Below are positions 2,367 through 24,870 of a stretch of 25,746 nt of DNA, one piece after another. A model generated the notes under the pieces. The model was not told where the DNA came from. It did no database searches and saw only the letters and a program-made list of their open reading frames with translations. Every line of letters begins with the position of its first letter. Position 1 is the first letter of the stretch. Source of the DNA: a virus. Location of the stretch: positions 1-25,746 of the IMG/VR virus record IMGVR_UViG_3300020182_000166. The stretch is one strand, 5' to 3'. A program made the translations under genes and the position numbers.

Positions 2367-2855
2367 TTATAAAGTTTCCGCAATTTGGAACAAAGCATCC
2401 ATTTCGTATTCCGTCATACCTAAAGCGGGAATCATTGCTAGAACCCAAGGTGATAATCTTTCTACCGTAGACGCATACTGCCACTCAATGCTAATGGTGG
2501 TCTTGTCAGGTTCAGGCATTGAAGCTATAGAGCTATCTACTAACTCAAGCTTCCCAGCCTGGGATAGCGCAAGCCTTGCTTGTCGCATACTAACAACCAT
2601 GCCTACTCGTATTTCTTCAGCAGTATAATTTCTGCCTGTGTATGTTTGCGTCCATACTCCATCTATTTCTTCAATTGGCCCCGGAGTAACAATATCAAAA
2701 GCAGGTTTATCTCCATCGACTAAAGGGTATACATTGTATTCAACTAATGAAGCCTCACTGGGTGTCGATGGAAAAGAAACATTAGGGTTCTCAGCACGAA
2801 GGCTATTAAGAGAATATTCTGAAGGAACCCCGTTTGTTAATTTAACGTATTTCAT
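2367..2855 (-). CDS. Fibre-associated protein (162 aa)
   Basis: The N-terminus (MKYVKLTNGVPSEYSLNSLR, then NPNVSFPSTPSEASLVEY) matches the opening of a widespread family of phage tail-fibre companion proteins. The C-terminal half (RQARLALSQAGKLELVDSSI, then WQYASTVERLSPWV and a helix near GMTEYEMDALFQIAETL) matches the helical end of the same family. Members usually follow fibre genes and may help fibre assembly or attachment. The start has AAGGA 8-9 nt upstream. Its place after four fibre-like genes agrees. Family membership is from recognition; the exact role is not established here. Confidence 0.75.
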   Translation of the reverse strand: MKYVKLTNGVPSEYSLNSLRAENPNVSFPSTPSEASLVEYNVYPLVDGDKPAFDIVTPGPIEEIDGVWTQTYTGRNYTAEEIRVGMVVSMRQARLALSQAGKLELVDSSIASMPEPDKTTISIEWQYASTVERLSPWVLAMIPALGMTEYEMDALFQIAETL

Positions 2856-2876
2856 AGTTTTTCCTTTTAAAACAAA

Positions 2877-3569
2877 TTATGATATTAACAGTGATGCCAT
2901 TATCAGTAAGCCATTGCTCCCACCATCCCCAAAACTCATACTTGTGGCGGTATTGCTATCTGCTTCGTAGGCTTTTGCTGCCATGTATCTATTACCACTT
3001 CTAGTACCGGAGCCATTTAACACAATGTTTGAGCCTACCCAAACATCTTCGTTTGGAGTAGAAGTCCAGTCAGTAACTGCATTACCATTAATAAAGCCAC
3101 CAACTACCAAACATGCTTGGCCCCGTGTAGGGAAGACGTTGACAAGAGAACCAGAAAGCTCTTCATCATTTTTAGCGCCTACAGTTTGTTCTATACTGAT
3201 TGTAGCTTGATTGTTAATATTATAAACAAGCAAAGTCGCAACAGTCGAAGCAGACACGTTTCCTTCTGGGTCTATGATAGTTGTTTCTGACCCTGACAGT
3301 ATTTTGTAAGCAAGAACGCCTCCATAGTCAGTACTTACATTTTCCGTTCTTATTTCAGTAAACCCAGATGGAACTTCGTTATAAAATTTATTACCTGCGC
3401 CCCACCATATTGCCAAGTCACCTGTTTCCGCGGCTGCAGGAACTACTAAACCTGATCCGTTAGTAGTAGCAGTTGTAGTTATAGCTGCTCTATAACTTAA
3501 CAAGGCAGAGCCTCCTGATCCCCTTAATAACGTATTACGCAGCACCAGAAAATACTCCATATAAAACAT
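2877..3569 (-). CDS. Fibre/decoration protein with one beta-domain (230 aa)
   Basis: A Gly-, Ser-, Thr- and Asn-rich, probably all-beta protein. It holds the sequence TGDLAIWWGAGNKFYNEV followed by PSGFTEI (residues 49-73). This corresponds to two segments of the neighbouring 430-aa protein (GDVVVVALSDDN...SSGW and AGDYLIVVGSRSGN...PSGW), so it appears to be a third copy of that domain. The C-terminus is glycine-rich and hydrophobic (GDGGSNGLLIMASLLIS). The start at 3569 is chosen for GGAA about 9 nt upstream; it lies inside the end of the previous gene (35-bp overlap). A virion surface or receptor-binding role is inferred from context. Confidence 0.7.
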   Translation of the reverse strand: MFYMEYFLVLRNTLLRGSGGSALLSYRAAITTTATTNGSGLVVPAAAETGDLAIWWGAGNKFYNEVPSGFTEIRTENVSTDYGGVLAYKILSGSETTIIDPEGNVSASTVATLLVYNINNQATISIEQTVGAKNDEELSGSLVNVFPTRGQACLVVGGFINGNAVTDWTSTPNEDVWVGSNIVLNGSGTRSGNRYMAAKAYEADSNTATSMSFGDGGSNGLLIMASLLIS

Positions 3570-3995: not shown

Positions 3996-5288
3996 TTAAC
4001 TAAATGAGTATTGATCGAGGCGAGTATTTATACTAGAACTCCACTGTGAAGTTATTGTCGTGCCTCCAATATCTAAAGCTGAATAAAAATAACCCGCCCT
4101 ATTGTTGTTAGTGCTTGCATCCAAAGTCACTGCATTGGGGGATGTAGTTGGAGTTCTAGGCCCCCCCACAAAATAATGGTTTAAAAAAACATCTACTGTA
4201 CCGTCATTTGCTGCACAAGTTACGGATGGAGCGGCATCAGAAAAAAACGCTCCGCTATGACCAACAAAACTTAACGAAAGAGACGTTTTAACCAAATACA
4301 TTAGCCCAACATATCCAACATTGCCGCCGCTTATACTGAGATTGCCGCTTTCGTTTCCTGTTGCTGTTTTATGATAAGAAAATTCATGAGTGCTGTTAGA
4401 ATCGCTAGTCCATCCGCTAGGAACAGTTGCCGTATTACCTGATCTTGATCCAACAACAATTAAATAATCACCTGCCTGTATGTTTGAAGGATAGGGAATG
4501 CTCATAGTGGCGCTAGAGCCAGAGGCTACGGTGCCGTGTGTTAACGTCAACGGATCAGGAATTCTAAACCCCGCCGCATTTCTTGCTGAAACACCCCCCG
4601 GAGGAAACGCAATTAACGTACCAATTTTTGCATCGGGTAAACCCCATCCAATAGTAAGCTGGCTTGCTTCATCAGGTGAACTAACACCTAATCTGTAAAG
4701 CTGTCCGTTTGACCCGCCGCCTCTTCCGTCATCTACGGCAATGGTGTATCCAGTAGGCGCAGTAGCAATTGAATCACTGTCATCGTCCGTGCAAGTAAGA
4801 ATTATAAAAACTGAATTAGCGGCTGCGGAAACTAACGGCCCTGCCTGAGCATTTATCCCACCCGAATTACTAATAACCGAACTTGTTTGAATGCCTGATG
4901 CGTCTACATTTCTATACGCTGTAGCCGTTAATGCATCTATAGTGTCATCGAGGTCTATTGAAGTATCTGGAGTTGCTCCCATAACTTTGTATAAAAAACC
5001 ATACTCAATACTGTTTTGAGCGCCGGTTGATATTGTTGTCCATCCTGAACTTGTTACGACGACCTCGCTATTGTCATCAGAAAGTGCAACAACAACAACA
5101 TCACCTTCTGCTAATCCAGTTATTCCTGTAAGACTTAAAGAGCTAGCACCGTTAGTTGATGTCGCGCCAACGTAAGACGGGCTAGGTGGTGTTGATGCCT
5201 GTTGAAATCCCAGCGAATCTAAACTAGTAGCGCCACCGGTACTCAACGACAAACTATTAAACCCTGCAAGAAGGTGATGGTTAAACAC
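3996..5288 (-). CDS. Fibre/adhesin protein with two repeated beta-domains (430 aa)
   Basis: It begins MFNHHLLAGFNSLSLSTGG from a GTG. That start is chosen because GGAAG sits 8 nt upstream and the fibre stop is overlapped by 8 bp; an upstream TTG (5294) is less likely. Two similar domains follow: residues about 40-235, around GDVVVVALSDD and SSGWTTIS, and about 240-430, around AGDYLIVVGSRSG and PSGWTSDS. Composition is Ser/Thr/Gly/Asn-rich, with no transmembrane segment or enzyme motif. The product is probably a virion surface protein involved in receptor binding. The domain recurs in the 230-aa gene downstream, giving three copies in one locus. Confidence 0.75.
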   Translation of the reverse strand: MFNHHLLAGFNSLSLSTGGATSLDSLGFQQASTPPSPSYVGATSTNGASSLSLTGITGLAEGDVVVVALSDDNSEVVVTSSGWTTISTGAQNSIEYGFLYKVMGATPDTSIDLDDTIDALTATAYRNVDASGIQTSSVISNSGGINAQAGPLVSAAANSVFIILTCTDDDSDSIATAPTGYTIAVDDGRGGGSNGQLYRLGVSSPDEASQLTIGWGLPDAKIGTLIAFPPGGVSARNAAGFRIPDPLTLTHGTVASGSSATMSIPYPSNIQAGDYLIVVGSRSGNTATVPSGWTSDSNSTHEFSYHKTATGNESGNLSISGGNVGYVGLMYLVKTSLSLSFVGHSGAFFSDAAPSVTCAANDGTVDVFLNHYFVGGPRTPTTSPNAVTLDASTNNNRAGYFYSALDIGGTTITSQWSSSINTRLDQYSFS

Positions 5289-8200
5289 TGACAAAACTTC
5301 CGTAAAGCAAAGAATTAGTCATCCATAGTTGAATGACGTTCCATCCTGTTGTTGAAAGCGTTGGAGCTACTCCGTTAGGCCAGTACATTCCTGTCGGCCA
5401 GGTGATCGTGTATGCACTACCATCATCTATTAGAAGGGTGACGTACTCACCTTCAGTAATGCTTGAGGTGAATGTTGTGTTTGCTGCTAATGTTTTGTAT
5501 TGCATCGTGCCGTTGGCAGGATCAATGGCTGTGCCGGTTAGCGAATAAGTCTGCTCCTCAACCTCGCCATTACTTACTAACCCTCCGACTGTAATTTTAG
5601 CCGTTGTTGTTGCGCCATTGTCGGTAATATCTTGGAGAGTAGGGTCAAATGATTTAGTCGTTAATGTTCCCGAAACATATTCTTGAACAGTAAATGCAGA
5701 GTTTGTTGTATCTCCAGTAAATTTAACCTTTCCAATGACAACGGCTGAACCGCCTATGTTGCCTGTACTAAAGGAAGCAACTCCCGCTTGAATGGGAATG
5801 GTGGTGTAGAGTTTAAGATCGTCAAAATCGCCAGTTACTCTGCCAGAGCCATATATTCCAAGTTTTAAATCATTATTATATGTCTGAGTCCCCGGTAAAG
5901 TATCTGAAGCAACCAAAAGACCATTTAAATATAAGTATAAATTATTTCCGCTCTTTACTAACGCATAGTGGTTCCAGTCTGTCCAAGTGGGTTGTGTAGA
6001 AGCAACAGTAGTTTGCCAAGCTCCGCTCACAGTGTGCCGTATCTGCAAACTTGGAGTGGTTGAATTGGGTGCTGTTGCACCTATGTGGATTAACTGATTG
6101 CTGTATCCAGTGCCTATGACTGCGGATGTACTTCCAAAAGCAGAGCCGTCTTGTTTGAACCAAACCGCCCACATAAAATCGCTATTGTTATTTGTGGGTG
6201 AACTTGAAAAGCCCAAAGTGTCGCCTGATGTATATTCAAACGCGGAATTGCTCACGCCATCTTGACCAGTTGCGTATGTTGGTGTAGCGCCAGAAGTGAT
6301 GTTTATAGAACCACTGCTACTTCCATCGTTGTTTAAATTACCGTTGAACTTATTCCAAACATAAGGGGTTGGAGCGGCACCCGCAGAATTGTAAAAATCT
6401 AACGGGTTTGTCTCTATTGTTAAAGAGCTTTGATCAATCCAATCGTAGTCAGTGCCGTCCCAAGTTAGCACTTGATCTTGAGATGCCGTGCTTTTATTAA
6501 GGTGAGCATCTACATCGGCGTTAGTGTATCCAGCAGGAAGGCCAGTAAGACTAGAGCCATCACCTGAGAAGGCTGTGGCTGTTACAGTGCCAGCAGGGCT
6601 AACCGTCAGGTTCGTAACGCCACCGTCGATCATCTCCCAGCCGCCAGCACTGGTGAACTTTAGCTCACCTTCACTTGATGCAACATGGATGTGACCTGTA
6701 GAGGTGTCGTCCAGAGTCGCACCAGTAGCACTGATGATGACTCCGTTAGCGCCTTGGGATGTTAAACCAGCAGCATAGCCAGCAGCAACAGCATAGGCAC
6801 CTTGAGTTGTTTTACCGGCATAAGAGCCGACAGCAATAGCGAAGGTGCCCTGCGTTGTTTGACCGGCCACGCGCCCCACAGCAACAGCATTGTCACCCTG
6901 ATTGCTATTGCCAGCATAGTAGCCAGTAGCGACAGAATCAATGCCCTGAGATGTTTGACCAGCTTGAGCGCCAACAGCGGTAGCATTAATGCCCTGCGTT
7001 GTTTCGCCAGCTTGGTTACCAACAGCTACAGCCTGACCGCCCTGTGTTGTTTGACCAGCTTCACGACCAACAGCGACAGCAGAGACACCCTGATTGCTAT
7101 TGCCAGCATAGTAGCCAGTAGCGACAGCGTTAGCGCCCTGAGTTGCCGAACCAGCATAAGGCCCATAAGCGACAGAGTAGTCACCCTGAGTGGAGCTACC
7201 AGCAGCGTATCCGGTAGCTACAGAATAGATGCCTTGCGTGTCATTACCGGCTGAATTGCCAACAGCTACAGCGTTAGTGCCCTGAGTTGTTTCGCCAGCA
7301 TCATAGCCAACAGCTACAGAATTAGCGCCCTGAGTTACTCGGCCAGCCTCACGGCCAACAGCAGTAGCATTAGCGCCCTGATTGCTATTACCAGCATAGA
7401 AGCCAGTAGCTACAGCACCAGTGCCCTGCGTTGTTTCACCAGTCTTCATGCCATAAGCGACAGCGTAGTCGCCTTGAGATGTTTGACCGGCCTCACGGCC
7501 AACAGCTATAGCGTAGTCGCCTTGAGTGGTATAACCAGCAGTGTAGCCAACAGCTACAGCATTGATACCCTGAGTTGTGTTACCAGCTAGGTAGCCAGCA
7601 GCGAACGCATCAGCACCAGCGGTCGCCTTAGCAGCCAGCAGGTCACCTGTGACGGTGAGTGCGCCAGTAGACAGTGCGTTAGTGGTGGTAGATCCAGCGG
7701 TTGTTACGTCGTCAAGGTCTAAAACAACAACACCTGTTTGAGCGTTAACAGACGCAACATCAGATGTTAATATGTCCCAAGCCGATCCAGTATATATTTT
7801 ACTTTTATTAATTGTAGTGTTGAAATACCAATCGCCTACTGTAACGGGATCGCCGTTTAAATCGACAGTAGGGTCGCTTGCTTGAGCGCCTAGGTATAAA
7901 CCATCAATAGCTTCTTGAGCCGCCTCAGCAGCAGCTTGAGCAGCCTGTGCTGCGGTTTCAGCGGTCTGTGCTGCTGTAGCACTAGTAGCTGCGTTTGTCG
8001 CTGATGTACTTGCAGAAGATGCAGAAGATGCAGCGTTAGTCTCTGAAGTGCTTGCGTTGGATGCACTAGTGGCTGCATTAGTTTCACTTGTTGATGCCGC
8101 TGATGCTGAGTTGCTTGCGGTTGTTGCTGATGTGCTTGCAGAAGACGCAGAGGATGTTGCGCTAGTCTCTGAAGTAGCAGCATTAGTTGCTGATGTAGCA

Positions 8201-8454
8201 GCATTAGTTGCTGATGTAGCGGCACTAGTCTCTGAAGTGGCCGCATTAGTCTCTGAAGTAGCAGCATTAGCCTCTGAAGTAGCAGCATTAGTCTCTGAAG
8301 CAGCCGCAGCAGCCGCATCAGCAGCTACACTAGCCTCACTACTAGCCGCTTGAGATGCAGAAGCAGCAGCCTCAGCAGCGTATTCTGCTACTTCTGAAAC
8401 AGCAGCTTCATTATTAGAGTTGCCAGAACCTCCAGTACCTCGCCAAATTGCCAT
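5281..8454 (-). CDS. Large modular tail fibre (1057 aa)
   Basis: Domains in order: a short head (MAIWRGTGGSG); an Ala/Ser/Thr repeat stalk of 7-8-residue units such as AATSETN (about 20-185); a linker module ending DWYFNTTINKSKIYTGSAWD (about 186-235); and 18 repeats of 16 residues, consensus G-x-x-A-V-A-V-G-x-x-A-G-x-x-T-Q (280-567), like the YadA/Hep_Hag heads of trimeric adhesins. A LamG/concanavalin-A-like lectin domain follows (about 690-882, with F..AVWFKQ, WTDWNHYALVKSGNNLYLYLNG and FDDLKLY). The last domain (about 955-1057) is shared with the 149-aa neighbour. This is most likely the receptor-binding fibre, probably trimeric. No S74 chaperone/peptidase was seen. The start has GGAG 8 nt upstream. 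Confidence 0.9.
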   Translation of the reverse strand: MAIWRGTGGSGNSNNEAAVSEVAEYAAEAAASASQAASSEASVAADAAAAAASETNAATSEANAATSETNAATSETSAATSATNAATSATNAATSETSATSSASSASTSATTASNSASAASTSETNAATSASNASTSETNAASSASSASTSATNAATSATAAQTAETAAQAAQAAAEAAQEAIDGLYLGAQASDPTVDLNGDPVTVGDWYFNTTINKSKIYTGSAWDILTSDVASVNAQTGVVVLDLDDVTTAGSTTTNALSTGALTVTGDLLAAKATAGADAFAAGYLAGNTTQGINAVAVGYTAGYTTQGDYAIAVGREAGQTSQGDYAVAYGMKTGETTQGTGAVATGFYAGNSNQGANATAVGREAGRVTQGANSVAVGYDAGETTQGTNAVAVGNSAGNDTQGIYSVATGYAAGSSTQGDYSVAYGPYAGSATQGANAVATGYYAGNSNQGVSAVAVGREAGQTTQGGQAVAVGNQAGETTQGINATAVGAQAGQTSQGIDSVATGYYAGNSNQGDNAVAVGRVAGQTTQGTFAIAVGSYAGKTTQGAYAVAAGYAAGLTSQGANGVIISATGATLDDTSTGHIHVASSEGELKFTSAGGWEMIDGGVTNLTVSPAGTVTATAFSGDGSSLTGLPAGYTNADVDAHLNKSTASQDQVLTWDGTDYDWIDQSSLTIETNPLDFYNSAGAAPTPYVWNKFNGNLNNDGSSSGSINITSGATPTYATGQDGVSNSAFEYTSGDTLGFSSSPTNNNSDFMWAVWFKQDGSAFGSTSAVIGTGYSNQLIHIGATAPNSTTPSLQIRHTVSGAWQTTVASTQPTWTDWNHYALVKSGNNLYLYLNGLLVASDTLPGTQTYNNDLKLGIYGSGRVTGDFDDLKLYTTIPIQAGVASFSTGNIGGSAVVIGKVKFTGDTTNSAFTVQEYVSGTLTTKSFDPTLQDITDNGATTTAKITVGGLVSNGEVEEQTYSLTGTAIDPANGTMQYKTLAANTTFTSSITEGEYVTLLIDDGSAYTITWPTGMYWPNGVAPTLSTTGWNVIQLWMTNSLLYGSFVSV
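6754..7617 (-). repeat. 18 tandem 48-bp units encoding YadA-like head repeats
   Basis: Eighteen 16-codon units run without interruption inside the fibre gene (18 x 48 = 864 bp), capped by a degenerate GANGVIISATG. Three units contain YYAGNSNQ or FYAGNSNQ (units 5, 11 and 15), and each is followed by a unit carrying AVGREAG or AVGRVAG. This suggests that blocks of several units were duplicated together. Confidence 0.92.
7900..8395 (-). repeat. Degenerate 21-24-bp repeats encoding the Ala/Ser/Thr stalk
   Basis: Low-complexity DNA dominated by forms of 'gcagcattagtctctgaagta' on the plus strand. It encodes AATSETN/AATSATN/ASTSETN units. Complementary frames also lack stops here, which produces spurious Leu/Gln- and Ala/Val-rich open frames on both strands. 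Confidence 0.85.
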
Positions 8455-11331: not shown

Positions 11332-11612
11332 TACCATTTCTCCTTATTGGCCCAATAAGCCGCTGACATCTTACCTTTTGCAATGTTCTTTGCATGACGA
11401 GCCTTAAATGACTTACGTCTAGATTTTTCTTTCTCAGACTTAGGGGCTTTACCCGCACCACTAACCCCCTGCTGTCCAAATCGTATTGTTTTAATTTGAT
11501 CGCCTTCCTTAGCAACTACTACGTGAGACTTTGTAGGATGGTTAGGAGTTCGCTTCGGCTTGTTGTAGCCTTGGACGCCCGCGCTTTTTAGCCTTGGGTC
11601 TTTCTCCTTCAT
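11331..11612 (-). CDS. Basic late protein, DUF6321-like (93 aa)
   Basis: The protein reads DPRLKSAGVQGYNKPKRTPN, HPTKSHVVVAKEGDQIKTIR, FGQQGVSGAG and ends KSFKARHAKNIAKGKMSAAY plus WANKEKW. This is the highly conserved phage protein I know as DUF6321, usually encoded close to portal or terminase genes, of unknown function and strongly basic. The start overlaps the portal stop (ATGA), with GGAGG 9 nt upstream inside the last portal codons. Its first 71 bp are also covered by the end of the out-of-frame 77-aa gene. Family recognition is good; a role in DNA binding or head maturation is inference. Confidence 0.88.
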   Translation of the reverse strand: MKEKDPRLKSAGVQGYNKPKRTPNHPTKSHVVVAKEGDQIKTIRFGQQGVSGAGKAPKSEKEKSRRKSFKARHAKNIAKGKMSAAYWANKEKW

Positions 11613-11775
11613 TGGCCGAATCCTCCACCCTGACCTCTTTGACCCGGCTGACTTCCTGCGCTTTGATTAGGGACTCCACCCTGGCCTCCACCTCCGACAG
11701 CCGATTGAAGTGCTCTTTGAATGCCTCGTTGATCTGGCGCACTAGCTGGTCGAACTCGTTCTGGGTCATTAGCAT
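11542..11775 (-). CDS. Out-of-frame coiled-coil protein bridging portal and DUF6321 genes (77 aa)
   Basis: The frame starts inside the 3' end of the portal gene (167-bp overlap) and ends inside the 5' end of the DUF6321-like gene (71-bp overlap). The product begins MLMTQNEFDQLVRQINEAFK, continues as a heptad-like helix (FNRLSEVEARVESLIKAQEV) and ends in a basic tail, KAKKRGRPRLQQAEANS. GGGAG lies 6 nt before the ATG at 11775. The normal composition, the coiled coil and the ribosome site argue that it is a gene and not a chance frame. The DNA here is visibly more GC-rich than its surroundings. Function is unknown. Confidence 0.6.
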   Translation of the reverse strand: MLMTQNEFDQLVRQINEAFKEHFNRLSEVEARVESLIKAQEVSRVKEVRVEDSANEGERPKAKKRGRPRLQQAEANS

Positions 11776-13684
11776 TTTTAGCTCCCTTTTGATCTGCTTC
11801 GGCTTGTTTAATTAGTGTTTGAGCTATTTTAAGACGACGATCAAACTCTTTGTCATCTTGATCTCCCTCTTTTAGGTTCTTTGTTATAGCTTCAATCTTA
11901 TCTATTTCAAGCTCTTGTGGCGCAAGCATGGTATCCATATCGTACTTCTTAGCTCTAGCCATAGACTCTTGCGCTTGGCCCGTTAATGCCGCTGTCTGGC
12001 TCTGCTGTAGTGCTAGTTGGGCTTGCATTGTCTGCTGCTGGGCTTGTTGTGCCTCTGGGTTAGGCTCTGATGCCTTTTTAAGAGTCGCAATAAGCTCTTC
12101 ACGATTAGACAAGTTCATGTTGTCTACAATGCTTTCAATCAAAATGGGGTACATAGGTGACTGCTTATCCATAGTTTGCAGTAATTGAACTAGCTGAGTA
12201 ACTTCATACTCTCTAGCTATAATGCCCAGTGTTGATGTAGCGTTGAACCTGTAATCCGCTACTGGGTAATTATCAGGATCAAACTGCATGTACCTATAAG
12301 CTGCTTTCTTAACAAACGGAAGTAAAAAGGACTGTTGAAAGTTTATTAATGTTCTCTTTTGTCGCTTAATAAGCGCACCAAGAGACATAGATATACCCGC
12401 AGCAGTAGCCTCACCGTTAACCTGACCCGCTAATCCTGCGCTATCTACTGCTCCAGTAGCTTGTTGTACCATTTGTTGTAAGGACTGAGCCTGTGCAAAA
12501 GTGATTTGACTTACTTGACCAAAGTTAAAAGGTTGAAGTATCTCACGAGGATCGCCGTTAGTAAGGATCGTCTCGCCAGGACGCACTTTTGGCTTAGATC
12601 CCCTTGGAAGTCTTGTAGCATCAATAGCCATCATCGGGTGAATGGTTAATGCTAGGGCGTCAATACGCGCTCTAAGCTCTGTATCTAGCGCCTTTTGGCT
12701 ATTATAGCCCTTCTCACACACCCCACGACCCCAAAACATAGAGGGAACTACGTCCCAAGGGAAAGCAACAACGGGTCTATCCTTCATCATGTAAGGATTT
12801 AACTCTGCTTTTAGCAGGAATCCACCGTTAGCTATAACAATAATAGCTTCAACATAGGCATTTTCTTCTTCAATATCCTCATCTATAGCGTCTTTGAGGA
12901 CATCTTTAGGCACCAATCCGTAATACTTAGTTAATCTAATTTGATCTTCTGGATAGGTAGATAAGTCTTGATCTGGCTCTAAATCTGTATCTGAGGGGGC
13001 ATTACCAATATAACCCTCATTATATATACCCTGATCTTGAAGTTGCTCAATGTGATGACGACCAACAAACTCATCAATAGCAACACCTAAAGCATCATCT
13101 ATTGACGTAGCTACAGGATCAATTAAGAAGTTCTGAGGCATGATAGGACGTAACTTAACAACTACCCGATCAGTTATGTTTACACCTATAGCCTGTAGCT
13201 GACCATCCATTACAGGCTGAGTAGCTGGCTTCATCTCCTTAATTTCTTCTAAAACAATTTCACCAATGCCCGTTCCAAAGACAGCAGAGTTAATTAAGCA
13301 CTCAGCAACAGCCTTTCTAACCATAGTATTTTCAAAGTCTTCGGTTAGTTTATTTCTAAGATACTGAACATCTTGCGCTTCTCTATCATTAACGTCATCC
13401 GATATATCAAACCACTTACCACGACCAAAGGTAGCTTCTTCGATCTCAGCTACGTTAGATTCTACGGCTTGCTGTAGTGCTGGAGAGATGATACGTGAAC
13501 GCTCAGACGCCCTATCAACATCTTCTGGCGCCCAGATCCCACGCCACAAGCGGTAGTATTCATCGAACTTGTCTTGGTAATTACTTTCGTAATCATCGCG
13601 CCAATCTTCACATTTTTGCATGACCCAATCTTCAACTGTAGTTTCCAGCATTAGCGGGTCTGGGCTGTAAATTTCATCTGCCAT
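11609..13684 (-). CDS. Portal protein, P22-like type
   Basis: A 691-aa protein. Length and sequence suit the P22-like portal group: N-terminal DWRDDYESNYQDKFDEYYRL and RSRIISPALQQAVESNVAEI; central VKLRPIMPQNFLIDPVATSI and PVVAFPWDVVPSMFWGRGVC with a following helix near GYNSQKALDTELRARIDALA; and TAAGISMSLGALIKRQKRTL near 425. The C-terminal third is Gln-rich and coiled-coil-like (EAQQAQQQTMQAQLALQQSQ) and the last 30 residues are Gly/Gln-rich. It forms the dodecameric ring through which the terminase packages DNA. AGGA lies 8 nt before the ATG. The final 167 bp are also read in another frame by the 77-aa gene. Confidence 0.92.
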   Translation of the reverse strand: MADEIYSPDPLMLETTVEDWVMQKCEDWRDDYESNYQDKFDEYYRLWRGIWAPEDVDRASERSRIISPALQQAVESNVAEIEEATFGRGKWFDISDDVNDREAQDVQYLRNKLTEDFENTMVRKAVAECLINSAVFGTGIGEIVLEEIKEMKPATQPVMDGQLQAIGVNITDRVVVKLRPIMPQNFLIDPVATSIDDALGVAIDEFVGRHHIEQLQDQGIYNEGYIGNAPSDTDLEPDQDLSTYPEDQIRLTKYYGLVPKDVLKDAIDEDIEEENAYVEAIIVIANGGFLLKAELNPYMMKDRPVVAFPWDVVPSMFWGRGVCEKGYNSQKALDTELRARIDALALTIHPMMAIDATRLPRGSKPKVRPGETILTNGDPREILQPFNFGQVSQITFAQAQSLQQMVQQATGAVDSAGLAGQVNGEATAAGISMSLGALIKRQKRTLINFQQSFLLPFVKKAAYRYMQFDPDNYPVADYRFNATSTLGIIAREYEVTQLVQLLQTMDKQSPMYPILIESIVDNMNLSNREELIATLKKASEPNPEAQQAQQQTMQAQLALQQSQTAALTGQAQESMARAKKYDMDTMLAPQELEIDKIEAITKNLKEGDQDDKEFDRRLKIAQTLIKQAEADQKGAKNANDPERVRPASAPDQRGIQRALQSAVGGGGQGGVPNQSAGSQPGQRGQGGGFGQ

Positions 13685-13696
13685 TATAATATCCTA

Positions 13697-14068
13697 CTAA
13701 AAATTTCTGAGTTTTCCACTATCAGCTGTAAGCTCTAACGTTACAGCAACCTCGACTACTCCTACAGAAATTGCTTGAACTTTTACCGTTTCTTCTTCGT
13801 GTAAAACAAACAAAGGGCCACCGCCATTAGATAATGAAATGTTGCTTGCCCCTGCTATAGAGGCACCATCAAATATATAAAGTTGTGGTGTTCCTTCTAA
13901 GTCCCAATACAAATCCACTGTATTCGTTGACACCTCGTGATTAGCAACAAAAATATATTTGATAATTGCAGAGTGATTTCTGGGAACTTCAAACAACTCA
14001 GTTAACGTGGTATCTGTCAACGTAGCGTGTTTTGTATACAGCTTAGATAATTGTTCACGTTCACTCAT
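13697..14068 (-). CDS. Small beta-rich structural protein (123 aa)
   Basis: The protein reads MSEREQLSKLYTKHATLTDT, then LFEVPRNHSAIIKYIFVANH and alternating strands to ELTADSGKLRNF. The 'VP.N.SAII..IFVAN' pattern resembles small beta-sandwich virion proteins of phages (head decoration or tail-related). No enzymatic residues stand out. The ATG at 14068 lies within a duplicated copy of the terminase 3' end, so its ribosome site (CGGGG about 8-10 nt upstream) is a copy of the one used by the preceding gene. A longer frame from a TTG would only translate that duplicated DNA. The structural role is inferred from place and pattern. Confidence 0.65.
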   Translation of the reverse strand: MSEREQLSKLYTKHATLTDTTLTELFEVPRNHSAIIKYIFVANHEVSTNTVDLYWDLEGTPQLYIFDGASIAGASNISLSNGGGPLFVLHEEETVKVQAISVGVVEVAVTLELTADSGKLRNF

Positions 14069-14107
14069 TTTAATACCCCGAAACAATGTCTAAGATTTCT
14101 GGTTCAT
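14061..14107 (-). repeat. Copy A of the 47-bp terminase-tail duplication
   Basis: Identical to 14617-14663 at 46 of 47 positions (T at 14103 where the other copy has C). It contains a now non-functional copy of the terminase codons EPEILDIVSGY-stop plus ATGAGTGA, the first codons of the next gene. It is not needed to end any gene here. Confidence 0.95.
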
Positions 14108-14108
14108 G

Positions 14109-14624
14109 TTAAACAGCTTCCGAGAAAGTATTAGCTGTTTTTGCTATTTGGTCTTTTGTAGGCGGTTGTAAATTAAAAATCTTAGAAATTCTAGGATCTT
14201 TATATATGTTCTCAACTGTATGGTGAAACTTACTATAAGCTTCAGCCATCGCTAACGAATTTCCTTCTGCTATTTTTTTTAAATACTCATTAGTTCCTTT
14301 TTGTTGGTAAATATTAGCTAAAAATAAAGCTTTTTGCTGATCTTTAGAAAGAAGATTAGGGTCGTTATCTTCTCTTGCTTTTTTTATCCATTCAACTTTT
14401 CCTAGATGTCTTTCTAATCTGTTAAGCCCTGTTTGAAAAGCATTTCCTTCTCCTTTAGTTAAAAATTGAAAGATTCCTTTTGCACTGCTTAGTTTGCTAG
14501 TAGTGTTTTTACCGCCAGACGATTCTATTTCAGCTACTTTATTTGTAAACACATCTATATTTTTTGTATCTTTTAAGTTTAATTCGTCAACAATACTAGA
14601 TTTAACTTTATTGTAATCACTCAT
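14109..14624 (-). CDS. Lytic-transglycosylase-like virion muramidase (171 aa)
   Basis: Residues 28-55 (NKVAEIESSGGKN, then SSAKGIFQF) match the catalytic region of SLT/lysozyme-fold transglycosylases: Glu followed by Ser (Glu34 the likely catalytic acid), then the G-x-x-Q of the substrate groove. The rest is helical (NRLERHLGKVEWIKK, DQQKALFLANIYQQKGTNEY, AMAEAYSKFHHTVENIY). It is between terminase and a structural gene, so it is probably a virion-associated enzyme that opens peptidoglycan during DNA entry, and not the lysis enzyme. The ATG at 14624 is 1 nt after the terminase stop. The gene is bracketed by the two copies of the 47-bp repeat. Confidence 0.72.
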   Translation of the reverse strand: MSDYNKVKSSIVDELNLKDTKNIDVFTNKVAEIESSGGKNTTSKLSSAKGIFQFLTKGEGNAFQTGLNRLERHLGKVEWIKKAREDNDPNLLSKDQQKALFLANIYQQKGTNEYLKKIAEGNSLAMAEAYSKFHHTVENIYKDPRISKIFNLQPPTKDQIAKTANTFSEAV

Positions 14625-14663
14625 TTTAATACCCCGAAACAATGTCTAAGATTTCTGGCTCAT
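14617..14663 (-). repeat. Copy B of the 47-bp duplication (in the terminase end)
   Basis: This copy is functional: it encodes the last 12 codons of the large terminase, its stop and the first codons of the transglycosylase-like gene. Repeat period to copy A is 556 bp, so one gene plus one copy equals the duplicated or inserted block. Confidence 0.95.
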
Positions 14664-15882
14664 CGAAGTCCCAATCACCAATACCATAAGGAACCTTAGC
14701 AAGTTGATCTATATACGCTAAACTGTCAACTAAGTCATCATGTGTTAATACATCTGGGAACTGGAAAAGCTGATCTAAAAATCTTGTGTTCCATTCACCC
14801 TTGCCTATGCTGATAACTCCATTCTCAAATCTTCCCTGTAATGCCCACATGATTCTATCAGTCTTTTTCTTATTGCCGTGAGTAAGCTCTTCTATTCTAA
14901 AAAACTGCATATAACGCTTCTGAAGGTCTAACAGTGGAGACATAACGGCTTGCTTGGCTATACCCCTTTCAATCCCTACAGAAATAGGCTGATAGTCTCT
15001 AACAGCTTGGAATATTTTCATAGCTGTTTCATCTAAAGACCATCTACCATAAATGATGTTATCTACGAACCAGTTTCCCTGGTCATTTATTTGAACAATA
15101 GCTATAGATGTTTCATCTAGTTTACTGTTTTTAGATCGCTTCTTTCCTACCTCTTCAAATCCAGCAAGATCAATAGCAATAAAGTAATCTCCAGAATCAA
15201 ATTCTTCACCATACTTTATCCATTCTTCTTTAAACATTTCTGAACCAGTGGCCTCAAATGAAGCCATAAATTCTTGTCTAAAGGCATAGCTCGACATTGA
15301 TTTCTGAGCAATATCAATTTCCGTTGAATCTAATATAGGGTTGTTATAAGAGGTAAAGTGCCAGGATTTGTAGGTTTCATCATCAGAAATCTCAGCATAT
15401 TTGTAAAGATCATAGAAATGATTACGACCCATAGGTGTTCCTATAAACATAGCACACCCCTTTAAGTCAGCAAGAGCAGGACGTAATATCTGCTCCCATA
15501 CCTCTGGCTTCATGTCTGCATACTCATCCATGACTAGGTATTTTAACTTTACACCACGCATAGTTTCCGGTCTATCAGCGCCTTTAAGACTAATAGTAGA
15601 TCCGTTAATTAGTTTAATTTGCAGGTTATTAATATGAGAGCCAGAAATAACAGGATTTCCAAGCTCCAAGAGGGTTTGCCACATAATATCTCTAGCCTGT
15701 CCCTGAGTAGGAGCAACGTAAAAGACATGACCTTTTGCAATTTGTAATGCATTAACAATCAATAGCCATGCTGCAAGATATGATTTACCAGTACGTCTAC
15801 CAGCAGCTACCACCTTAAAGCGAGTTGGATCACTCCATACTTCTTTTTGCCAATCAAGAAGCTGAATGTCTAAATTACTCAT
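14626..15882 (-). CDS. terL: Terminase large subunit
   Basis: The 418-aa packaging motor and nuclease. ATPase domain: Walker A AAGRRTGKS (residues 26-34), an adjacent YVAPTQGQARDIMW motif, Walker B LVMDE (116-120; Asp119, Glu120), and the coupling motif IGTPMGRNHFYDLY. RNase-H-like nuclease domain: YFIAIDLAG (first Asp, about 240), VGIERGI (Glu, about 304) and a final LTHDDLVDSLAY (Asp, about 385). The length is on the short side of normal for this family but all motifs are present. It overlaps the small-terminase gene by 8 bp, and its last codons are duplicated further down. It acts with the portal to fill the head. Confidence 0.96.
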   Translation of the reverse strand: MSNLDIQLLDWQKEVWSDPTRFKVVAAGRRTGKSYLAAWLLIVNALQIAKGHVFYVAPTQGQARDIMWQTLLELGNPVISGSHINNLQIKLINGSTISLKGADRPETMRGVKLKYLVMDEYADMKPEVWEQILRPALADLKGCAMFIGTPMGRNHFYDLYKYAEISDDETYKSWHFTSYNNPILDSTEIDIAQKSMSSYAFRQEFMASFEATGSEMFKEEWIKYGEEFDSGDYFIAIDLAGFEEVGKKRSKNSKLDETSIAIVQINDQGNWFVDNIIYGRWSLDETAMKIFQAVRDYQPISVGIERGIAKQAVMSPLLDLQKRYMQFFRIEELTHGNKKKTDRIMWALQGRFENGVISIGKGEWNTRFLDQLFQFPDVLTHDDLVDSLAYIDQLAKVPYGIGDWDFDEPEILDIVSGY

Positions 15883-16366
15883 TTATTTCTACATCATTAT
15901 TTGAGTCAATCTCAACATCTTTAATGGGATTAGACGTAATGCCTGTAATGTTAATTTGTATGGCTGATCTATTCTGATCTGACTCAAATAGCTCTGTAAC
16001 CACAGCAGAAGGCATAATAACACCAACGACTATCTTCCAGGCGCTAGCTCTATCCTTGTCTTCAGGGTCTAATGCAGCATCCCAGATAGAATCTAAGACC
16101 TTTCTACTCTTAGGACTAGCCAACATACGGTCACGATACTCACGCATAATGGCAGCAGACTCTTTTTTATTACGTCTAACTCTTTTTTTAGGTCTACCCA
16201 TCTTAGGTTCAAGTATAGGCAGATCCTCTTTAGTGGCTCTACGTAATTCAGGAACTCTCTCTAAGTCCAAGGTATCCTCAAACTTAGGTATATCTATGTT
16301 TGTAACTCTTTTATCAGTAGGCTTATCCATAACGGGGCCATTATTCCTTAAAATGTAATTCTCCAT
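15875..16366 (-). CDS. Putative terminase small subunit
   Basis: A 163-aa charged protein directly upstream of and overlapping the large terminase gene. The centre (MGRPKKRVRRNKKESAAIMR, then EYRDRMLASPKSRKVLDSIW and DAALDPEDKDRASAWKIVVG) combines a basic, AT-hook-like GRPKK and a helical segment suited to DNA recognition. The ends are acidic or polar. Small terminases are poorly conserved, so the call rests on position, size and this basic helical core. The start is uncertain: ATG 16366 (overlapping the previous stop) or ATG 16330. Neither has an ideal ribosome site. Confidence 0.65.
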   Translation of the reverse strand: MENYILRNNGPVMDKPTDKRVTNIDIPKFEDTLDLERVPELRRATKEDLPILEPKMGRPKKRVRRNKKESAAIMREYRDRMLASPKSRKVLDSIWDAALDPEDKDRASAWKIVVGVIMPSAVVTELFESDQNRSAIQINITGITSNPIKDVEIDSNNDVEINE

Positions 16367-17546: not shown

Positions 17547-17592
17547 GCGCGAAGCAGTCACCTGTTCGCGCGCGAAGCAGTCACCTGTTCGC
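17547..17592. repeat. Two tandem 23-bp units with internal dyads
   Basis: Two exact copies of a 23-bp unit that begins GCGCGAAGCAG and ends CACCTGTTCGC. Each unit contains the near-palindrome GCGAA-g-CAG / CTG-TTCGC around TCAC, so each can fold or bind a dimer. With the 18-bp array, the 12-bp palindrome and the start of the replication genes 200 bp away, an origin or early-promoter operator is likely (inference). Confidence 0.85.
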
Positions 17593-17770: not shown

Positions 17771-18700
17771 ATGAGCAAGGGAGCCATAAAAATGACAAAT
17801 GAAAAAACCTCAGCATATCAAAAGGTTACAGATAACATTGTATCAATTCTTGAAGAAGACAAGCTTCCACCCTGGAATAAAGAATGGACAGGAGAGCCGT
17901 TGTCTTTGCCGTATAACTCAGTAACTAGACATGAATACCAGGGCATTAATATCTGGAACCTGTTATTAACTGGCTGGGCAAAAAACTATGACTCGAATCA
18001 GTGGGCTACTTACAAGCAGTGGAATATTGCTGGCGGCAAAGTAAAGAAAGGAGAGCGCAGCACAACAGGCATTTTCTTTAAACCTATTGTTAGAACCGAT
18101 GACAGTGGAGAGGAACACATTGTTAAATTTGTTAAAGCCTTTTCCTTATTTAACAGAAACCAGGTTGAAATTGATAACGAGCTAGTAAATCCATCCCATG
18201 AAAAGCTACCCATTGATGACGTTTACTTAACCGGGAGTGCCGCAGAGATGGCCTCAAGCTTAGGCGTAAAGATTGTTCCTGGATCGCCAGCTTACAGCCC
18301 CTCGATGGACAAGATACATATGCCAGAAATTGATTCATTCACTACGGCAGAAGCTTATTTTGCAACGATGGCGCATGAATGCAGTCACGCTACCGGCCAC
18401 AACACACGACTTAAGAGAGACCTTACCAAACGCTTTGGCAGTAACGAGTATGCGATGGAGGAATTGATAGCAGAGCTAAGTGCTGCGTACCTATGCAGCA
18501 AGTACAACGTAGGGTATGCAATCGAGCAGCATGCTAGTTATCTAAAGTCCTGGATCAAGGTCTTGAAAGAAGATAATAAAGCTATCTTCCACGTAGCTGC
18601 TGCTTCACAGCGCGCCGCAGACTACGTCCAAGATAGCGTTAGTTCTATGCGCTTGGAAGTTGAACAGGAATCAGAGCTAGGTCAGTTGATGGGGGCATAA
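17771..18700 (+). CDS. ardC: ArdC-type antirestriction protein
   Basis: A 309-aa protein with the ArdC layout: an N-terminal ssDNA-binding domain (SAYQKVTDNIVSILEEDKLP, WNKEWTG, Y.G.N.W.L, YKQWNIAGGKVKKGERSTTG) and a C-terminal zincin metallopeptidase-like domain with HECSH (His202, Glu203, His206) and a downstream EELIAE (230-235) likely to supply the third ligand. Plasmid ArdC protects incoming DNA from type I/II restriction. As the first early gene it would act just after injection, and the genome also encodes a methyltransferase. Two starts are possible: ATG 17771 (GGGAG, 7 nt) or the in-frame ATG eight codons in, which also has an AAGGGAG. Confidence 0.85.
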   Translation: MSKGAIKMTNEKTSAYQKVTDNIVSILEEDKLPPWNKEWTGEPLSLPYNSVTRHEYQGINIWNLLLTGWAKNYDSNQWATYKQWNIAGGKVKKGERSTTGIFFKPIVRTDDSGEEHIVKFVKAFSLFNRNQVEIDNELVNPSHEKLPIDDVYLTGSAAEMASSLGVKIVPGSPAYSPSMDKIHMPEIDSFTTAEAYFATMAHECSHATGHNTRLKRDLTKRFGSNEYAMEELIAELSAAYLCSKYNVGYAIEQHASYLKSWIKVLKEDNKAIFHVAAASQRAADYVQDSVSSMRLEVEQESELGQLMGA

Positions 18701-23492: not shown

Positions 23493-23683
23493 ATGAGATA
23501 CATGTAGGTTTATTAGGATTAGGTTTTTTATTACTAGGTTTAGCATTTGCTGGGAATGAGGGCTATGACCAGGAGGTAAATCTTCTCGCTAACTACTGCG
23601 AGATGGTGCAGATTGGGATTGACAGCAATGGCGAGAACGGCTGGCCTGATTATAAAGGCATCTACTCTGAGATTTGCCAGTAA
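23489..23683 (+). CDS. Small membrane protein with conserved Cys/Trp tail (64 aa)
   Basis: One hydrophobic segment (GLLGLGFLLLGLAFAG, residues 7-22) is followed by a polar domain with two Cys (NYCEMVQIGIDS...WPDYKGIYSEICQ). The motif CEMV...WPDYKG.Y.E.C is seen in short phage and prophage proteins of unknown role. The segment could be a signal peptide or an anchor, placing the Cys pair outside the cytoplasm where a disulfide could form. ATGA overlap with the previous gene and TAATG junction with the methyltransferase gene. Confidence 0.65.
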   Translation: MNEIHVGLLGLGFLLLGLAFAGNEGYDQEVNLLANYCEMVQIGIDSNGENGWPDYKGIYSEICQ

Positions 23684-24870
23684 TGGCGGCTTACTATAAT
23701 GAGTTTGACCCTTTTGCTGCCGCTTGGCTCAAGGAGTTAATCAAGGACGGCTTAATAGCCGATGGCATTGTTGACGAGAGGAGTATTGCAGATGTCCAGC
23801 CAGAAGACCTTAGAGGATTCACGCAGTGTCACTTCTTCGCAGGGATTGGTGGATGGAGCGCAGCAGCCAGACTTGCTGGATGGGATGATGACCGACCAAT
23901 GTGGACAGGAAGCCCACCCTGCCAGCCATTCAGTACAGCCGGGAACAGGAAAGGAAAAGACGATCTCCTCCGACATCTCTGGCCGGTGTTCTTTAATCTC
24001 ATCCGCGAGTGCCGCCCTCCAGTTGTCTTTGGAGAACAGGTTGCGTCAGCAATTAGAATGGGGTGGTTCGACGATCTACAAAAAGATTTGGAAGCAGAAG
24101 GTTACGCCAGCGCAATGGTCGTACTCCCAGCTTGCAGCGTCGGTGCCCCGCACAAAAGAGATCGACTCTTCTATGTCGCAGAAGGGGTGGGCAACGCCGA
24201 ACACAATGGATCATATGGCTCTGAGGTCGGACGAGGCTTTGCTTCGGCAAGAAACGACGATCAGGAAAGGCCGAACGTTTCCAAACAATTTGAGGGAGCA
24301 AGTAGACCCAAGATCACAGGAAATATACGCAACGGGGAAGATACCAGCGGCATGGCCGACGCCCAGTGCGACCTGTCGAGAGACATCGCTAGAGACAATG
24401 AAGAAGCGCAAAGAATTCAGGAAGCGCAATGCCAATCAGAACACGGTTCCGATGTACCTGCCAGATGCGGTCCAGGTGATGCACAGCAAGGAATATGCGG
24501 AAGCGATGGGCTACAAGGACGAAGAAAGAGCAGCATGGCCGACACCAACAACAAGGGATTACAAGGATACGGGCGATCTGAGCAAGTCGATGATCCGCAA
24601 AGACGGAAAGAGTCGGTGCGATTCAGTGCCGAGAGTAGCAAGCACTATCGGTGCGGCTCGGATGATAACTTCTGGGCAGGAAGCGAACACATATATTGCC
24701 GAGATGGGAAAGAGCGTCAAATACCAGTTGAACCCGCGCTTTTCCCTTTGGCTCATGGGATACCCAATCGAGTGGGCACACTGCGCGGAGCGGGTAACGC
24801 CATTGTCCCGCAAGTCTCGGCAGAAGTGATTGGTGCTTATATGAGCGTGGAGCAGTGCAATGACAATTGA
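23683..24870 (+). CDS. DNA cytosine-5 methyltransferase, Dcm type (395 aa)
   Basis: C5-methyltransferase motifs in order: I HFFAGIGGWSAA (50-61), IV GSPPCQPFS with catalytic Cys80, VI VVFGEQVAS with Glu118 (the usual N of ENV replaced by Q), VIII PHKRDRLFYV, and X GAGNAIVPQVSAEVIGAYM near the end. The middle (about 170-340), where the target-recognition domain lies, is unusually Gly/Asp/Arg/Gln-rich and carries three short VGNA/MADA/MADT segments. The ATG at 23683 shares a base with the previous stop; a TTG upstream adds three residues. It probably modifies phage DNA against restriction. Nearly the whole gene is also open in the +1 frame (see 23792-24829). The region is GC-richer than its neighbours. 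Confidence 0.88.
   Translation: MAAYYNEFDPFAAAWLKELIKDGLIADGIVDERSIADVQPEDLRGFTQCHFFAGIGGWSAAARLAGWDDDRPMWTGSPPCQPFSTAGNRKGKDDLLRHLWPVFFNLIRECRPPVVFGEQVASAIRMGWFDDLQKDLEAEGYASAMVVLPACSVGAPHKRDRLFYVAEGVGNAEHNGSYGSEVGRGFASARNDDQERPNVSKQFEGASRPKITGNIRNGEDTSGMADAQCDLSRDIARDNEEAQRIQEAQCQSEHGSDVPARCGPGDAQQGICGSDGLQGRRKSSMADTNNKGLQGYGRSEQVDDPQRRKESVRFSAESSKHYRCGSDDNFWAGSEHIYCRDGKERQIPVEPALFPLAHGIPNRVGTLRGAGNAIVPQVSAEVIGAYMSVEQCNDN
23792..24829 (+). CDS. Overprinted WPTP-repeat protein inside the methyltransferase gene (345 aa)
   Basis: A 345-codon frame, +1 to the methyltransferase, starting MSSQKTLEDSRS from an ATG with GAGGAG 8 nt upstream. It reads as a known protein type often annotated hypothetical in phages: HPASHSVQPGTGKEKT, then LQLSLENRLRQQLEWGGSTI, YKKIWKQKVTP, VPRTKE, three W-(A/P)-T-P motifs (GWATPNTM, AWPTPSATC, AWPTPTTRDYKD) and a conserved end LNPRFSLWLMGYPIEWAHC plus TPLSRKSRQK. 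The W-T-P codons coincide with the VGNA/MADA/MADT codons of the methyltransferase. Whether it is translated is unproven, but start, ribosome site, length and motifs all support it. A role tied to DNA modification is inference. Confidence 0.55.
   Translation: MSSQKTLEDSRSVTSSQGLVDGAQQPDLLDGMMTDQCGQEAHPASHSVQPGTGKEKTISSDISGRCSLISSASAALQLSLENRLRQQLEWGGSTIYKKIWKQKVTPAQWSYSQLAASVPRTKEIDSSMSQKGWATPNTMDHMALRSDEALLRQETTIRKGRTFPNNLREQVDPRSQEIYATGKIPAAWPTPSATCRETSLETMKKRKEFRKRNANQNTVPMYLPDAVQVMHSKEYAEAMGYKDEERAAWPTPTTRDYKDTGDLSKSMIRKDGKSRCDSVPRVASTIGAARMITSGQEANTYIAEMGKSVKYQLNPRFSLWLMGYPIEWAHCAERVTPLSRKSRQK

Follow-up and report, generated by a model that had tools for sequence, protein, structure and literature searches.

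A 47-bp repeat of a terminase gene end as the probable scar of a gene-order change in a phage genome

Gene content of the terminase-portal segment

The window, that is, the whole stretch of 25,746 nucleotides that was analysed, carries on its minus strand the gene order small terminase, terminase, mur, g123 and portal. The small terminase (15875-16366) is named by its position, and its product has no Pfam or PHROG match. Its stop overlaps the start of the terminase large subunit gene (14626-15882) in the sequence AAATGAGTAA (15875-15884, minus strand). The genes that follow encode a 171-residue protein (mur, 14109-14624), a 123-residue protein (g123, 13697-14068) and the portal protein (11609-13684).

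The evidence for a muramidase- or transglycosylase-like function of mur is weak. The window protein has neither a Pfam family nor a curated domain match, and its PHROG transglycosylase match is weak (E 0.0047 over 30 aa), so the putative name "muramidase-like" is plausible and unproven. Five records of named phages, from Vibrio and Pelagibacter, match mur at 32-37%, and in the Vibrio phages the resemblance is to a stretch annotated as internal virion protein. The fold model of mur is poor (mean pLDDT 51.7), and a comparison with solved structures gives two matches, with E values of 0.2 and 0.79. The g123 protein is a predicted virion-like beta-sandwich (pLDDT 86.8) that finds no match among named phages. 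Its fold matches are weak and mixed, with a cement protein of a phage and a turret protein among them, so a role at the virion surface is a guess.

Several other features of the window are recorded here. A 1057-residue gene at 5281-8454, tail-fibre-like by appearance only, contains approximately 15 in-register 48-bp (16-aa) repeats of the type TQG..AVA.G..AG at 6718-7683. A perfect tandem duplication of 23 bp, which is also an inverted repeat, lies between divergent gene blocks at 17547-17592, and an ArdC-like anti-restriction gene (PF08401, PF18818) is located at 17771-18700. An M15 peptidase gene (PF08291) at 724-1191 occupies the far end of the late-gene region; most of the relatives listed have an M15-like gene between the small terminase and the terminase, and 12 of 14 records tested have one M15-like match.

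A direct repeat of the terminase tail

A repeat search of the window recovers a direct repeat at 14061-14107 and 14617-14663, the copies of which are identical at 46 of 47 positions (98%), in agreement with the 47-bp duplication of the terminase tail reported in a sequence-only reading of this DNA. Approximately 7e-18 repeat pairs of such quality are expected from the base composition, and inspection of the sequence places the limits of identity exactly at these coordinates. The copy at 14617-14663 (minus strand) comprises the last 38 nt of the terminase, which form its functional 3' end, then a single spacer base and the start of mur, ATGAGTGA. The other copy (14061-14107, minus strand), referred to below as the relic, holds the same terminase 3' end without its gene; it separates mur from g123 and closes with the start of the latter, again ATGAGTGA. 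The relic sequence ATGAACCAGAAATCTTAG would translate as M-N-Q-K-S-stop, and its terminase codons have no surrounding gene, which fits the earlier description of the second copy as a non-coding remnant. By means of this tail copy, g123 shares with mur the same upstream sequence, including a GGGG 7 nt before the start.

The sole mismatch reads ATGAGCC in the terminase copy (position 14659) and ATGAACC in the relic (position 14103), and it falls within the 7-bp word at the junction of mur and the relic. The 42 consecutive bases to its right, in minus-strand reading, are identical in the two copies. Because the copies differ nowhere outside the joint word, the comparison suggests that the 47-bp event is recent. 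The easy loss of mur by recombination between the two copies, as put forward in the sequence-only reading, would be reasonable.

Gene order in related records

Relatives were collected with IMG/VR searches, in which the window terminase matched at least 80 loci (the best 80), the L086-type terminase at least 80, mur 5, g123 8 and the small terminase 1; a genome-contig search added 4 contigs of metagenome-assembled genomes (MAGs). Because it was built from similarity searches, this sample is chosen by similarity and is not random. Gene order was assigned by profile searches in 156 records including the window, with same-contig repeats removed; 12 such loci were taken out before the order, tail, small-terminase and terminase-segment counts. 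The gene profiles were run without L093/L094, which belong to the window itself, and without the short matches L170-L176. Tail comparisons left out terminases without a stop on the contig, so that 153 of the 156 records, the window included, were kept.

Among the matches listed, g123 precedes the terminase in 101 of the 155 other records. The order terminase, g123, portal is found in seven (L082, L086, L096, L097, L098, L100 and L104), which are the relatives that had been predicted, with g123 immediately after the terminase and one copy of the sequence. The mur gene is present in six of the 155, always between the small terminase and the terminase: directly before the terminase in L082, L086 (the same record as L081) and L135, and before g123 and the terminase in L083, L084 and L085. 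Only in the window does mur follow the terminase among the records listed. The group contains three or more gene orders, namely lysin-g123-terminase, lysin-terminase-g123 and terminase-lysin-g123. The order small terminase, mur, terminase, g123, portal of L086 and L082 differs from that of the window, which indicates that mur and the terminase have swapped places in the latter.

A simple new insertion of mur was rejected, as relatives carry mur upstream of the terminase. The sequence-only reading, which held that mur had been inserted or had been gained by tandem duplication and replacement, thus stands in part. Its remnant, its relatives and its single-copy order are borne out, and duplication with replacement comes close to the model preferred below. 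Plain insertion does not hold: mur is no newcomer, since relatives hold it between the small and large terminase genes, as the window's own ancestor very probably did, so that the event is a change of order from mur-terminase to terminase-mur.

A second copy of the terminase tail occurs in one of the 153 terminase records listed, the window itself, and the other 14 tail matches listed span only 13-21 nt. The alternative outcome named in the earlier reading, in which all relatives carry both copies, did not occur. This distribution argues against a conserved site, and it bears on the idea that the repeat is functional, as a packaging site, a regulator or an attachment-type repeat of a mobile gene. 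The near-identity of the copies is what such a function would give; however, other mur-bearing records among the 153 have no second copy, the repeated sequence is the exact coding end of the terminase, and the segment holds only mur, with no Pfam or PHROG match to a nuclease or recombinase. A packaging or regulatory repeat and a mobile-gene insertion were both rejected on these grounds, and a functional repeat of any of these kinds is considered very improbable. An Rfam search and a tRNA scan each returned 0 matches.

No duplicated intermediate, which would help the case but which a completed event need not have left behind, is present among the 155 other records listed. Exact patterns of the terminase/mur and mur/relic joints have 0 matches in the viral collection, which may omit near-copies of the window's record, and the exact 47-bp repeat pattern has 0 matches in viral contigs; the arrangement is thus known from a single contig.

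Small genes that resemble neither mur nor g123 occupy the gap between terminase and portal, which in the window holds mur and g123, in L006 (2664-3026), L029 (6248-6595), L072 (5495-6031) and L077 (2957-3493), and L129 carries between terminase and portal (2591-3082) a 163-residue protein with cysteine pairs and an HNH-like end, judged by sequence appearance. The variety of small genes between terminase and portal indicates that this gap accepts inserts.

Differing ancestry on the two sides of the joints

A comparison of the window proteins with those of L086 and L082 reveals high amino acid identity for mur (99%), g123 (98% and 97%, respectively) and the portal (98%), versus 74% for the terminase and 44% for the small terminase. 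At the DNA level, the match to L086 is 99.4% over 526 nt, beginning just upstream of mur and extending 8 nt beyond its stop; past mur, the window DNA resumes at the L086 terminase tail and continues into g123 and portal, which are 96-100% identical per 200-bp step to the four nearest records listed. In trees of 40 rows (the L086 clade plus near relatives, with every sixth record of the remainder), the window lies inside the L086 clade for the portal (100/100) and outside it for the terminase, where that clade is again supported at 100/100. The flanks of the joints therefore differ in ancestry, and on sequence comparison the terminase and small-terminase bodies are of a lineage different from that of the closest relatives. 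The nearest terminase among the matches listed is 85% identical in amino acid sequence and the nearest small-terminase body is 69% identical (L095), which leaves the donor and the true parental 5' joints unseen.

The last 72 nt of the terminase gene are closest to the L086 clade, the members of which rank 1-8 of 152. In the 100 nt before this tail the same clade ranks 9-61 of 152, and from -400 to -172 it ranks 103-134 of 152. Toward the other end, the clade ranks 137-153 of 155 over nt 94-193 and 57-89 of 155 over nt 34-93, and the 5' end is not clearly L086-type (ranks 5-18 of 155). A foreign terminase body thus meets a native-like 3' end. Approximately 8 of the 72 tail positions differ from L086, compared with 0-4% of positions in mur, g123 and portal; this greater divergence of the tail relative to the flanking genes indicates that the direct parent is not sampled.

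The early region of the window is not shared with the 18-kb record of L086, except around the DNA methylase and in one stretch of approximately 110 nt. The cytosine methylase gene (PF00145) lies at 23674-24870, and stretches within about 23683-24825 are 90-96% identical to the L081/L086 record, the other early genes of which are mostly unmatched.

The composition of the terminase is what would be expected from a crossover in its tail, and a second explanation builds on this point. A foreign small terminase-terminase block would have recombined at the terminase 3' end of an L086-like phage, with loss of the upstream mur, and a co-infecting L086-like phage would later have supplied mur anew, placed between the tail and g123 through two template switches, with duplication of approximately 40 bp of the tail. 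According to this account, mur never adjoined the present small terminase. The relic also agrees with it, in that it matches the window's own tail at all three informative sites described below and its sole mismatch lies in the word at which the return would have taken place. However, it leaves the 3' end of the small terminase unexplained, and we regard it as rather unlikely.

The 3' end of the small terminase

The small-terminase stop and the mur start overlap within AAATGAGTGA in L082, L083, L084 and L086. Across the 129 records with an identified small terminase, the gene ends in ATGAGTGA in 4 of the 6 records with mur next, the exceptions being L085 and L135, and in 0 of 122 others. The small terminase of the window ends in AAATGAGTAA even though the terminase comes next. 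Over its last 27 nt, the mur-followed L082, L083, L084 and L086 rank 1-4 of 128. Further upstream, these four rank 28-39 of 128, 13-62 of 128 and 73-101 of 125, and L095 is the best match for two segments more than 87 nt from the stop. As L083/L084 and L082/L086 form two lineages, the association rests on about two independent cases. We read the 3' end as a probable trace of a mur gene that once adjoined the small terminase of the window.

Short shared words at the joints

The two joints coincide with very short homologies of 10 and 7 bp. The 10-bp word AAATGAGTGA, common to the mur and g123 starts, is found at the terminase/mur joint (14617-14626, minus strand) and at the relic/g123 start (14061-14070, minus strand). 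The terminase/mur joint of the window reads TATTAAAATGAGTGATTAC; the corresponding L086 sequences are GTAAATGAGTGATTAC for mur and TATTAAAATGAGTGAACG for g123. The mur/relic joint lies on the 7-bp word ATGAACC (14101-14107, minus strand), which L086 carries past the mur stop as well as within the terminase tail. After the mur stop, L086 reads CATGAACCCAGCGG and the window CATGAACCAGAAATC; the terminase tail of L086 is GATGAACCAGAAATC. ATGAACC marks the change-over.

At all three sites to the right of ATGAACC where L086-type tails differ (GAC for GAT, and TTTCG for TCGCG), the relic has the bases of the window's own terminase, and the simplest reading is that the relic was copied from the present tail. 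These sites bear on a third explanation, in which the relic would be the part of the original L086-type terminase that escaped deletion, a second, foreign terminase would have entered upstream of mur, and the present terminase would never have been duplicated. The exact mur/relic joint would indeed result if an L086-like genome lost the DNA between its two ATGAACC words. However, the relic carries the bases of the window terminase at the three sites that distinguish it from the tails of L086, L082, L087, L088 and L092, so that gene conversion or an unsampled parent would be required, and this origin is improbable.

The same joints bear on the chance that the arrangement is an assembly artefact in a metagenomic contig. 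It is known from one contig, and an exact repeat of 42 bp can tangle an assembly graph; however, the overlaps of 10 and 7 bp are too short for k-mer mis-joining, and the reading frames are intact at both joints. An artefact is therefore highly unlikely.

The motif AAATGAGTRA occurs three times in the window, only at the terminase, mur and g123 starts, where 0.08 occurrences would be expected. In the other records, AAATGAGT is found only at mur starts (4 records), and start words of at least 8 nt common to two genes of one record form four pairs, none of them AAATGAGT. The candidacy of this word as a group-wide exchange point at gene starts is thus unsupported beyond the window. In the list of terminase starts, for which start codons were set by a rough rule that is implausible for some records (e.g., TTGCCGTG), ATGAGTAA appears in the window alone and ATGAGTAG once, in L168.

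Proposed route of the gene-order change

The 47-bp repeat is probably the scar of an illegitimate recombination that moved mur from upstream to downstream of the terminase. From the repeat, the gene orders, the joint words, the terminase ancestry and the 3' end of the small terminase, we infer the following molecular steps and their order. The ancestor would have had the gene order now seen in L086 and L082, namely small terminase, mur, terminase, g123 and portal. An exchange at the AAATGAGTGA words of the mur and g123 starts would then have placed a second mur after the terminase, either by duplication of the whole mur-terminase block or by copying of mur alone through two template switches; the two routes yield the same end product. 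On the duplication route, the second terminase would have been deleted except for its last 38 nt, with the ATGAACC after mur joined to ATGAACC/ATGAGCC in the terminase tail. Finally, the original mur would have been lost, and the small terminase would have kept the 3' end typical of mur-followed genes. In a separate event, which may have come before or after these steps, the small-terminase and terminase bodies would have been exchanged with another lineage.

Discussion

The repeat is a well-preserved example of phage gene reshuffling and not a new kind of element. Tandem duplication followed by random loss is a gene-order change known from animal mitochondria, in which adjacent genes exchange positions and part of the lost copy persists where it is predicted to lie. 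In the window, the neighbour order is likewise swapped relative to close relatives, and the relic before g123 equals the retained copy at 46 of 47 positions. Unlike the mitochondrial cases, the window is part of a phage genome, no duplicated intermediate is seen, and copying of mur alone would look identical. A literature search combining tandem duplication random loss with bacteriophage found nothing, which does not imply absence in print.

Insertion of a gene by a mobile element with target duplication also leaves a gene between direct repeats, and the mur gene of the window is flanked in this manner. Unlike in such insertions, no mobility gene was found, the repeat is a coding tail, and the joints fall on microhomologies.

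A paper on lambda Red (PMC2327257) discusses how illegitimate and homeologous recombination give rise to mosaic phage genomes. As in the mosaic phages described there, modules of different ancestry meet at gene borders in the window, with short or diverged homologies at the joints. The window differs from these in that each base of its joints is legible and that a gene already present has been moved, not only replaced.

On a wider scale, it is possible, though tentative, that the small terminase-portal segment of this phage group is a shuffling zone in which orders change by tandem duplication and reciprocal loss, seeded by AAATGAGT, a translation-start word that neighbouring genes have in common; the window would then represent a recent instance, in which as many as three scars can still be read. 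In phages, changes of gene order are as a rule known only from their end products. The window offers in addition the remnant, both joints and near relatives that have the other order; the route can thereby be followed nearly base by base, and whether shared gene-start sequences serve as exchange points can be put to the test.
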